Position numbers and translations under genes: made by a program. From Emydura subglobosa (taxonomy: Eukaryota > Chordata > Testudines > Chelidae), in assembly GCA_007922225.1 (NCBI GenBank), contig ML680053.1, positions 8,168,217 to 8,232,216 of the forward strand: 64,000 nt of DNA, written 5' to 3'. The notes under the pieces are model-generated. The model was not told the origin of the DNA and ran no database searches. It was given only the letters and a program-made list of their open reading frames with translations. This document shows, in pieces, positions 5,285 through 53,457 of the stretch (position 1 is its first letter; the number at the start of each line of letters is the position of its first letter).

Positions 5285-5380
5285 GAAAACAAGGAGAGTC
5301 CTGTAGCACTTTAAAGATTAACACATTTCTGGGGGCATAAGCTTTCGTGGGCTGCAACTCACTTCGTCAGATGCATGAAT
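5285..5380 (-). mobile_element. Short hammerhead-bearing insert nested in CR1
   Basis: An insert of about 96 bp flanked by CTAAGG at 5279-5284 and 5381-5386, a likely target-site duplication, because the CR1 text continues across it. On the minus strand it starts with the hammerhead motif and ends with a tail (GTGCTACAGGACTCTCCTTG). It is the same family as the inserts at 6245-6325 and 53338-53457, and lies opposite in orientation to the former. Confidence 0.75.
5331..5378 (-). ncRNA. Hammerhead ribozyme motif (near-complete core)
   Basis: Minus strand: CTGACGA (plus 5364-5370), then stem II GTGAG/CCCAC (one A.C mismatch), then GAAA (plus 5343-5346). A short AGCT (plus 5340-5343) follows in place of a stem III hairpin. 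Stem I is GCAT/ATGC, with perfect pairing on both sides of the core. All invariant core bases are present. A four-base palindromic stem III is too short to close alone, but would pair between two molecules or two adjacent copies, as known for dimeric hammerheads. Activity is inferred only. Confidence 0.65.
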
Positions 5381-6244
5381 CTAAGGTATTAGAGGAGGTT
5401 TTGGCAAATTGATAGATTAAACAGTAATAAGACACCAGGACGAGATGGTATTCACCCAGAGGTTCTGAAGGAAATCAGATATGAAATTGCAGAACTACTA
5501 ATTAACTGTGGTATATTATCTATAATTTAAATCAGCTTCTTTACCACATGACTGGAGGATAGCCAGTGACACCAATTTAAAAAAAAAAAAAAAAAAGGCT
5601 CCAGAGACAATCCTGGCACTTACAGGCAGGTAAGCCTAACTTCAGTACCAGGCAAACTGGTTGAAACTATAGTAAAGAACTGAATTATCATATACACATG
5701 ATTTGTTGGGAAGAGTCATCCTGGTTTTTGTAAAGGGAAATCATGCCTCACCAATCTATTAGAATTATTCGAGGGGGGTCAACAAACATATAGACAAGGG
5801 TGATCCAGTGGATATAGTGTAGCTGGACTTCCACAAAACCTTTGACCAGGTCTCTCACCAAAGGCTCTTAAGCAAACTAAGCCGCCACAGGATAAGAGGG
5901 AAAATCCTCACATGGATCAGTAACTGGTTAAAAGAGAGGAAACAAAGGGCAGGACTAAATGTTCAGTTTTCAGAATGGAGAGAGGCAAATAGTAGTCTCT
6001 CCCAGGGGTCTGTAGTGGTACCAGTACTGTTCAACATATTCAGAAATTATCTGGAAAAAGGGGTAAACAAGGAGGGGGCAAAGTTCACAGACAATACAAA
6101 ATTACTCAAGAGAGTTAAGTTCAAAGCAGTCTCTGAGCTCAAAGGCATCTCTCAAAACTGGGTGACTGGACAATAAAATGACAGATTCAATTCAGTGTTG
6201 ATAATTGCAAAGTAATGCACAGTGGAGAACACAATCCCAACTAT

Positions 6245-6325
6245 CTTACAAAGTCTGACGAAGTGGGTTGCAGCCCACGAAAGCTTATACCTGCAGAAAT
6301 TAAATTTGGACTCTTGTTTTTTTTT
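6245..6325 (+). mobile_element. 81-bp hammerhead-bearing insert with 12-bp target duplication
   Basis: The CR1 sequence AATCCCAACTAT occurs at 6233-6244 and again at 6326-6337, exactly flanking this segment. The insert begins CTTACAAAGTCTGACGAAG and ends with GGACTCTTGTTTTTTTTT, so it has a hammerhead at its 5' end and a T-rich 3' end. It shares both ends with the insert at 5285-5380 but lacks about 20 bp in the middle. No protein is encoded, so mobilisation must have been in trans. Confidence 0.85.
6253..6289 (+). ncRNA. Hammerhead ribozyme motif, weakened stem I
   Basis: CTGACGA at 6255-6261, stem II GTGGG (6263-6267) paired with CCCAC (6274-6278), GAAA at 6279-6282, and an AGCT palindrome at 6282-6285. 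The core is intact and stem II perfect. Stem I is poor here (T6254-A6287, then a G.T wobble), so cleavage is doubtful in this copy. Confidence 0.6.
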
Positions 6326-7168
6326 AATCCCAACTATGCATACAAAATGATGGGGTCTAAATTAGCTCTAAATTACCACTCAAGAAAAAGCTCTCATTGT
6401 CATTGTGGCTAGTTCTCTGAAAACATCCACTCAATGTGAAGCAGCAGTCAAAAAGCTAACAGAATGCTAGGAAACATTAGAAAAGAGACAGATAAAAAGA
6501 CAGTAAATATCATAATGCCATTATATAAATTCATGGTATTCCCACACCTTGAATACTGCATGCAGTTCTAGTCACCCCCATCTCAAAAAAGGTATATTAC
6601 AAATAGAAAAGATACAGAGAAGGGCAACAAAAATTATTAAGGATCTAGAGCAGCTTCCATATGAGGAGAGATTGTTCAGCTTGGAAAAGAGAGAAATAAG
6701 GAGAGATATGATAGAGATCTAAAAAATTATGAATGGTATGGAGAAAGTGAATAAGTAAGTGCTGTTTACCCGTTCACGTAACACAAGAATCAGGGATCAC
6801 CCAATGAAATTAATAGGCAGCAGGTTTAAAACAAACATAAGGAAGTACTTCTTCACACATTGCACAGTCAAGTTGTGGAACTCATTTCCAGGGGATGTTG
6901 TATAGGTCAAAACTATTCAAAAAAGAATTAAATAAGTCCCTGGAGAATAGGTCCATCAATGGCTATTAATCAAGATGATCAGGGATGCAACCCCATGCTT
7001 TGAGTGTCCCTAGCCTCTGACTGACAGATGCTGGGACTGGATGATGGTGGATGGAACACTTGATGATCACCCTGTTCGTTCCCTCTGAAGCATCTGGCAT
7101 TGGCCACTGCCAGAAGACAGGACACTGGGGTAGTTGGACCTAATTCAGTATGGCTGTTCTTATTCTGA

Positions 7169-7784
7169 GTGGACTCAGACATTAAGGGACACACAGCACA
7201 ACTACCATGTACAGTAGTGCCAGTCCCAAGAATTCCAAAATCATGAGTCAGTCTCCTCCCTCCCCAAAAGCAATTGATTGTCTTAAAAAAAGTGAAATTT
7301 TAAAAAATTATAGGTTTGTGAGTGGCTGCCTTTTGGTCTTGGAGCCATTAGATGCCATGTTTTCAAGCTTTTCTCCACAGCCAGAAGGATAGAAATTTAC
7401 TTTAAAGAGAAAAATGAAAGCTGTGAGTCTGAAGCAATCACATGAGTGCAGGAGCTAGGGCTTTAAGAGGAGAAGCGAATATTGCAAGACTGACAATAAA
7501 GTAGTCAACGCTGTGATGGTTGCCATGGAAGTACCTAATATAAATAAATATAATCCTCTCTCAACGAACCTCACTCATATTTAAAACCCACCATGAAAAG
7601 GAACCTCATAACAGAAGAGTTCATGACATCAGCACAAATTGTTTCCTAACAATCACTGCTCCTTCACAGACGCACTTTAAATCTCAGTGTAGGATGGTTT
7701 GGAGAGCATCTGGTATGAGCTGAATGTTTCATGGAACTTTAACATTAATGCTTTGAACTTTTCATCTCCAGAGCTGTATGCCAG
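7169..7784. other. No recognisable gene or repeat
   Basis: AT-rich sequence between the CR1 3' end and GC-rich repeat copy B; nothing identified. Confidence 0.5.
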
Positions 7785-17826: not shown

Positions 17827-17855
17827 GCATGATGTGTGAAGGCCAAGACTGTAAG

Positions 17856-18098
17856 GGGGTCAAAAAAAGAACTAGTTAAGTTCATGGAGGATAGTTCTAT
17901 CAATGGCTATTAGCCAGGATAGGCAGGGACTGCTGTTTGCCAGAGGCTGAGGATGGGCGATGGGATGGATCACTTAATGATTACCTGTTCCGTTCATTCC
18001 CTCAGAAGCATAGGGCATTGGCCACTATCAGAAGACAGGATACTGGGCTAGATGGACCATTGATCTGACCCAGTATGGTTTTTCTTATTTTCTTATGG
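17856..18098 (+). mobile_element. CR1 LINE 3' end
   Basis: Contains the family 3' signature: CATTGGCCACTATCAGAAGA, then CTGGGCTAGATGGACC and a TTTTCTTATTTTCTTATGG end. Same subfamily as the 3' ends at 7168 and 29193, but severely 5'-truncated. Confidence 0.92.
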
Positions 18099-52718: not shown

Positions 52719-53337
52719 CTGGTTTTCAAATGAATATTCTTGTTAAAAAGCTGTGAAATTTAGAATTCTCATTCTCATAGGAACAACTAATACAATCCCA
52801 AGGCAATGGAACTATACTAGGTATTGATCCAATCTGTTTGTGTATCTCAACATTTCCATTTTATTTCAACTGGAAATAGAATTTTCAGCCGTTAATGGGT
52901 TTTGTCCTGTCTTCAGACTCAAAGAGCTAGATTCTGCTTCCCTTCAAATCAATAACAAAACTTCCCTTGTCTTTGGTGGGAGAGGAACTGGGCCCTAATT
53001 GAGAACTTCTCCAATAATGATTGGGTTACATGAAAGAATTTCCTTACTCTCTCAGCCAACACAAATGTGTTTGATAAAATGATATTGTTTGTCCATAGTT
53101 ATCCTGCAAAACCCCCTCATTTATTGACAAGTAAATTGTTTTGAAGTTACTTTTTCAACACAAAACGTTTTTCCTCCTTTGAAACATGAAGCAAAGAACA
53201 TTCCCAAGTCATCTTGGTTGAAGGACATCACTTTTACCAATGTCATAAATACACTGGAAAGCCTATACACATTCTCAGTTAGCTGTTGTGTCAGAGATGT
53301 TGGCGTCACTCTGAAGAAAAAGCAAATCATTATTGAG
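52719..53337. other. Segment between duplicated copies
   Basis: AT-rich, non-coding. 52925-52998 resembles a fold-back fragment (GCTAGATTCTGCTTCCC). Otherwise unassigned. Confidence 0.4.
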
Positions 53338-53457
53338 TTCCAGAGGGCTGTGTTAGTCTGTTTTTAGCAAAACAGCGAGAGTCCTGTGGCACCTTAAAGA
53401 CTAACACATTTATTTGGGCATAAGCTTTCCTGGGAAGAAACCCACTTTGTCGGATGA
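53338..53457 (-). mobile_element. Hammerhead-bearing element, third copy
   Basis: On the minus strand it starts with the hammerhead motif and continues to GTCTTTAAGGTGCCACAGGA, then GACTAACACAGCCCTCTGG. It is longer than the two CR1-nested copies and includes a region they lack. ATTATT occurs at both sides (53329-53334 and 53458-53463), a possible target duplication. Confidence 0.75.
53418..53456 (-). ncRNA. Degraded hammerhead ribozyme motif
   Basis: Minus strand CCGACAA (plus 53447-53453) stands where CTGACGA is expected, with two changed core bases. Stem II GGG/CCC, GAAAGCTT (plus 53422-53429) and a 3-bp stem I (CAT/ATG) remain. Expected to be inactive. Confidence 0.55.

Follow-up and report, generated by a model that had tools for sequence, protein, structure and literature searches.

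Short hammerhead-bearing inserts in the turtle Emydura subglobosa as probable leader-only copies of a Penelope-like element

The 81-bp hammerhead-bearing insert found in the window, the whole stretch of 64,000 nucleotides of Emydura subglobosa DNA analysed here, is an ordinary, decayed member of a Penelope-like element (PLE) family. We consider it probable that the insert is a leader-only copy, made by reverse transcription that began inside the mRNA leader of the parent element and ran off at the RNA 5' end, a position corresponding to the left edge of the hammerhead. Rather than a ribozyme element standing on its own, the insert is probably a by-product and a dead end. The initial annotation had read the insert as a ribozyme-only, SINE-like element mobilised in trans; a mobile, retrotransposed, hammerhead-bearing insert flanked by a target-site duplication (TSD) remains of that reading, and the separate element mobilised in trans is not supported. 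The features on which the analysis rests are as follows; in the family coordinate, counting starts with the C of CTGACGA (window base 6255) as position 0, and negative values lie upstream.

6233..6244, plus strand: left copy of the target-site duplication (AATCCCAACTAT), from repeat comparison with a grafted-flank control
6245..6325, plus strand: 81-bp PLE leader insert of the short 3'-end class, from alignment to 16 long PLE copies
6245..6254, plus strand: ambiguous left edge, either CCTTACAT-like element sequence or target-derived, with a 6-nt word common to both readings
6255..6261, plus strand: hammerhead core CTGACGA, whose C is position 0
6263..6278, plus strand: stem II GTGGG / CCCAC with loop TTGCAG
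6279..6291, plus strand: GAAA (6279-6282), GCTT (6283-6286) and the predicted cut between 6286 and 6287 (GCUU/AUACC)
6308..6309, plus strand: junction left by an internal deletion of 21 bp, from comparison with relatives such as L021
6309..6325, plus strand: the family's short 3' end (GACTCTTGTTTTTTTTT), read as an internal reverse-transcription start
6326..6337, plus strand: right copy of the target-site duplication
5400..7200 (approximate span inspected), plus strand: CR1-type LINE hosting the insert, from an RVT_1 match and the resumed frame
5285..5380, minus strand: second family copy, B-type, starting at the ribozyme edge, with a weak 6-bp repeat CCTTAG
about 53336..53456, minus strand: third family copy, C-type, with the long 3' end and a mutated core (CCGACAA), its start lying at the ribozyme edge

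The insert lies within a LINE, as first annotated. The left flank reads as reverse transcriptase (RVT_1, E=1.2e-10), and the host frame, which ends ..CTVENTIP to the left of the insert, picks up again as NYAYKMMGSKL.. from the second repeat onward. We take this LINE to be a CR1, a name given by recognition of its translated reading rather than by a library match. The perfect 12-bp direct repeat reported around the 81-bp insert is present, with AATCCCAACTAT at 6233-6244 and again at 6326-6337; the copy has a TSD and is free of any inverted piece. Its left edge can be placed in two ways. The first 9 nt, CTTACAAAG, include a 6-mer that occurs both in the element's own CCTTACAT and in the CR1 to the right of the second repeat, GCATACAAAATG, and because this word fits element and flank alike, the insert starts at either about -10 or about -2. 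The size of 81 bp results from the internal deletion, by which the insert lacks 21 bp present in its relatives. The deletion junction occurs at two places genome-wide including the window, and an autonomous 81-bp unit was rejected because the junction is nearly private to this copy. The sole other site is G000:C135:3440636-3440656, where the deletion could be related or independent. The T-rich tail that had been noted at the right end is there, but it is the family's ordinary short 3' end (..GACTCTCGTTGTTTTT).

The description of the hammerhead core as intact was too strong. The conserved core letters (CUGANGA at 6255-6261 and GAAA at 6279-6282) and stem II are in place, but helix I is limited to a U-A and a G-U pair followed by two mismatches, its partner being mutated to AUACC where the family has AUGCC, and helix III is absent in a single copy (monomer). 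Helices I and III, which an active hammerhead needs, are thus unable to form in the window copy. Rfam hammerhead models gave no match around the insert, even at E<=10. The family's GCAT form, by comparison, is able to pair as GCAU/AUGC, and AAGCUU may provide helix III in a dimer; on the model of the dimeric PLE hammerhead, the cut would fall between 6286 and 6287. A minimal hammerhead without helix III within the pseudo-LTR (pLTR), as is typical of PLEs, is thus found in the family. One copy, L114, carries stem II as GTGAG/CTCAC and the core as CTGAGGA, so that both sides of one pair are changed together with the free position of the core; this paired change is a single case, short of a covariation test.

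The family is large. In the genome searched (1.93 Gb in 1268 contigs), the core pattern has 1331 exact matches, compared with 0 for the reversed control, and a 32-base stretch just downstream of the core has 1685. Two samples, which overlap in part and come mainly from contigs C1 and C2, were analysed. The exact-core sample comprises 71 distinct copies, of which 3 were unaligned under the anchor rule. The downstream-stretch sample comprises 92 distinct copies at 86 loci, from the first 100 places listed (contigs C1 and C2), and its selection favours neither the ribozyme nor its left edge. Copies less than 150 bases from the end of a stretch were omitted. At least three subfamilies (A, B and C) are distinguished by the stem II loop and by the sequence after the ribozyme. 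Subfamily C has 121 cores genome-wide, 55 of them with 16 further downstream bases kept, and 28 of these 55 places entered its edge analysis.

The link to Penelope-like elements that had been suggested is borne out by the long relatives, and the insert family is assigned to the PLEs because these relatives continue upstream into a decayed open reading frame (ORF) with reverse transcriptase (RT) and GIY-YIG parts. About 30 of the 71 exact-core copies extend upstream, some with up to ~1400 bp in common. In three A-type long copies, about 160 bp separate the end of the decayed ORF from the ribozyme; the terminal part of the ORF matches GIY-YIG (PF01541, E=5.5e-6, above the cut-off), and an upstream part gives a weak RVT_1 match (E=0.0082, below the cut-off). 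The ORF was read in A-type copies, the C-type long copies being covered for 85 bases upstream. In long A-type relatives the RT and GIY-YIG ORF is continuous with the pLTR, and it is absent from the insert itself. In L021 and L030, the search found neither a complete 5' end of a long element nor, further upstream, a leader; L030 borders on a 57-nt piece of the tail in inverted orientation. On the other side, colinear continuation past +135 was seen in 0 of 71 flanks.

Minimal PLE hammerheads, their dispersal in animal genomes, dimeric cleavage, the tail, inverted pLTRs and TSDs have all been published already (PMC7761336, PMC6155905, PMC3846280, PMC11167929). The closest likeness is to Poseidon of Anolis carolinensis (PAc, of Penelope/Poseidon type), which combines an RT and GIY-YIG ORF with a pseudo-LTR bearing a minimal hammerhead, and which has two 3' ends set apart by a 30-40-bp tail, inverted end pieces and target duplications (PMC11167929). 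The PAc ORF is said to start at stem II; an unsystematic look at the turtle copies did not identify such a start codon. The turtle family differs from PAc in its large leader-only class with a reproducible 5' edge at the ribozyme.

The 3' ends of the 92 copies in the downstream sample fall into two groups, 55 at +79..+100 and 31 at +120..+129, with 6 between. The preferred ends near +90 and +125 lie 35 nt apart and match the PLE tail; the family therefore has the optional 30-40-bp 3' tail characteristic of PLEs, and the window copy is of the short form. At the 5' side of the same copies, 27 start at -11..+5, 0 at -16..-12, 12 at -131..-17 and 29 further up; about 12 copies with a start near -225 were probably cut by the 371-base fetched stretch and were counted only as long. 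The remaining 24 start at +6..+59, inside the ribozyme region, and 20 of these have an inverted piece upstream. In the exact-core sample, 34 of the 68 aligned copies start at -11..+5. In subfamily C, 25 of 28 copies lose similarity at -10..0 and 3 run on. Alignment-derived 5' ends are fuzzy by a few bases; where the repeat score is at least 9, 7 of 15 simple short copies start exactly at -6..+2, and in the remaining 8 additional or filler bases extend to -11..-37. Random fragments with no common ends, named in the initial annotation as the outcome that would refute it, are not what is seen: many short copies do have common ends.

Upstream of the edge, most long copies have TATATATA about 30-40 bp from the ribozyme, and this TATA region lies outside the short inserts. 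Of 27 long copies, 19 have TATAWA, whose last occurrence begins at -34..-38, and 8 have no strict form of it; among the long C copies it is found in 2 of 3, at -37..-43. The spacing from TATA to the edge is variable and on the long side. Long relatives that continue through the TATA region make up 17 of 29 copies in subfamily A, 13 of 31 in B and 3 of 28 in C, short copies being commoner in C than in A and B.

Target duplications are frequent in the family. A repeat score of at least 10 was reached by 46 of 124 family copies (a few of which are two halves of one insert or one locus sampled twice) compared with 2 of 370 grafted-flank controls, the usual score being 12-13. Of the 92 copies, 36 have an inverted 3' piece on their upstream side (score of at least 14), a score that 3 of 60 shuffles reach. 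The family accordingly shows the combination of TSDs and inverted end pieces that marks PLEs. For the anole PLE, both strands were found to be cut and extended in vitro (PMC11167929), and since inverted 3' pieces occur here, this analogy suggests that both DNA strands were primed where such a piece is present. Head-to-head copies, as in L019 at 1430-1570 (also in L013, L029 and L062), form long near-perfect hairpins, and the two halves in L019 join at an ATGCAT palindrome. Rfam matches of L019 to miRNA precursors were set aside, being below the gathering score and reflecting the long hairpin only.

Based on these ends and considering the mapping of the anole enzyme, whose reverse transcription starts internally and for which the two ends of the tail are RT start sites inside the RNA (PMC11167929), we propose the following hypothetical sequence of events, in which (i) the PLE reverse transcriptase would start within the 5' leader of the PLE mRNA, the 3' ends of the inserts corresponding, by analogy with the in vitro mapping, to the start sites; (ii) the enzyme would head toward the 5' end of its template, as suggested by the shorter products that 5'-shortened templates give in the anole system (PMC11167929); (iii) it would run off the 5' end of the transcript, yielding promoterless inserts of ~80-125 bp; (iv) where an inverted piece is present, both strands would have been primed. 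The 5' pile-up would then represent a transcription start fed by TATATATA ~30-40 bp upstream, as its position suggests, and the left edge of the insert likely marks the start of the parent element's RNA. Since the copied stretch does not include the TATA region, the inserts would have no promoter and would be dead ends. The template RNAs would have carried an uncut ribozyme, since the copied stretch crosses the predicted cleavage site.

The pile-up at the ribozyme might also have been set otherwise in a PLE-derived copy, by a stop of the reverse transcriptase at the ribozyme fold, by a bound protein or by an RNA-processing cut. The edge does coincide with the ribozyme, and the anole PLE protein binds this region of its RNA and assists its ribozyme in vitro (PMC11167929). 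However, an enzyme moving from 3' to 5' meets the 3' side of the fold first, at about +19..+27, whereas the starts accumulate beyond its opposite side, where copying of the ribozyme is already complete. Self-cleaved RNA used as a template would place run-off starts at +32, and only 4 of 92 starts lie at +29..+36. We therefore regard such a block or cut as unlikely, though still worth some weight. Ordinary 5' truncation that happened to stop near the ribozyme is familiar from PLEs, whose copies are often truncated in this way, and the sample holds both the 41 of 92 starts upstream of -16 and the 24 inside the ribozyme region. Any single copy, taken by itself, cannot be distinguished from such a chance event. 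The population argues otherwise, since the 17-base interval -11..+5 receives 27 of the 63 starts within -131..+59 where 5.6 are expected (p about 8e-13, under a uniform model), and the C copies concentrate at -10..0 as given above; random truncation is very improbable as the source of the class.

A ribozyme-only, SINE-like element that forms a lineage of its own and depends on the PLE protein for mobilisation in trans would account for many short copies with recurrent ends, and it gains some appeal from subfamily C, which is mostly short (25 of 28) and whose short copies cluster on the tree. Resolution of that tree is poor, with stars on 2 of its 67 inner branches; in it, the A-long copies and the C-short copies cluster more than shuffled labels. 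The B copies, however, whether short, inverted or long, are intermixed, the short copies are without the TATA region, and the deletion junction behind the 81-bp form of the window insert has just one other occurrence genome-wide. A subfamily C made up strictly of short copies was considered and rejected: a first count gave 0 of 11 long copies, against 30 of 60 in A and B combined (Fisher p=0.0017), and the larger one gave 3 of 28. Because long relatives occur in all three subfamilies, C included, a separate ribozyme SINE is disfavoured, and we judge it quite improbable. Still further from the evidence, and scarcely credible, is a metazoan non-LTR retrozyme moving through circular RNA. The insert resembles metazoan retrozymes in being a small, non-coding, TSD-flanked retroelement with a hammerhead. 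These have tandem repeats of 150-450 bp, canonical type I hammerheads with loop contacts and usually a helix III, and circular RNAs (PMC7229834). The turtle insert, in contrast, is 81 bp with a single minimal hammerhead and no tandem unit, and its family is directly continuous with a PLE; the retrozyme was rejected on these grounds.

The leader-only origin that we favour can be set beside two further known systems. Penelope of the rotifer Adineta vaga (PMC3846280) likewise has a pLTR with TATATATA and an initiator-like site, a 31-bp tail, an inverted pLTR on the 5' side, a TSD of 9-10 bp and solo pLTRs. Some of its solo pLTRs are described there as having no TSD and are ascribed to recombination or deletion; in the turtle, by contrast, TSDs are frequent among the short copies, whose starts fall at the ribozyme edge. 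The turtle copies also resemble the dispersed minimal type I hammerheads of animals, which have no helix III and are scattered in non-coding DNA, and of which some lie in PLE pLTRs and are thought to cleave as dimers, according to a review (PMC7761336). Whereas the review calls the role of the dispersed motifs unknown, the census presented here assigns an origin to the short hammerhead copies of this genome.

For the minimal hammerheads of one genome, the census thus offers a concrete origin, and it predicts, with an uncertainty of a few bases, where transcription of the parent element starts. The census is also relevant to the question whether cleavage of PLE RNA precedes reverse transcription, as the inserted copies extend across the predicted cleavage site. 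An uncut template agrees with in vitro work that showed unprocessed RNA to be the anole enzyme's main substrate, and in which ribozyme mutants also inserted normally (PMC11167929). We tentatively extend the proposal, at somewhat less than even confidence, to leader-only insertions as a general and recurrent PLE product, comparable to integrated strong-stop DNA. Such a product could explain the thousands of minimal hammerheads scattered through animal genomes; it would also preserve a fossil map of PLE transcription starts and show template ribozymes to have been uncut. Our search, outside which the primary PLE-hammerhead papers lay, found no published account of leader-only inserts that begin at a fixed 5' edge, though one may be in print. 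The insert class, whose sharp 5' edge likely reflects the transcription start of the parent element, is a variant that merits testing.

Two further family copies, both on the minus strand (5380-5285 and about 53456-53336), are present in the window in addition to the one initially annotated, so that all 3 of its 3 copies start at the ribozyme edge. The repeats of these two are short (CCTTAG, at 5285-5380) or unclear (at 53336-53456). The window stretches 6868-7026, 17837-17928 and 29484-29374 match the upstream, non-leader part of the L053 reference; this part is probably a CR1-like stretch rather than PLE sequence, of which the window apparently holds several.
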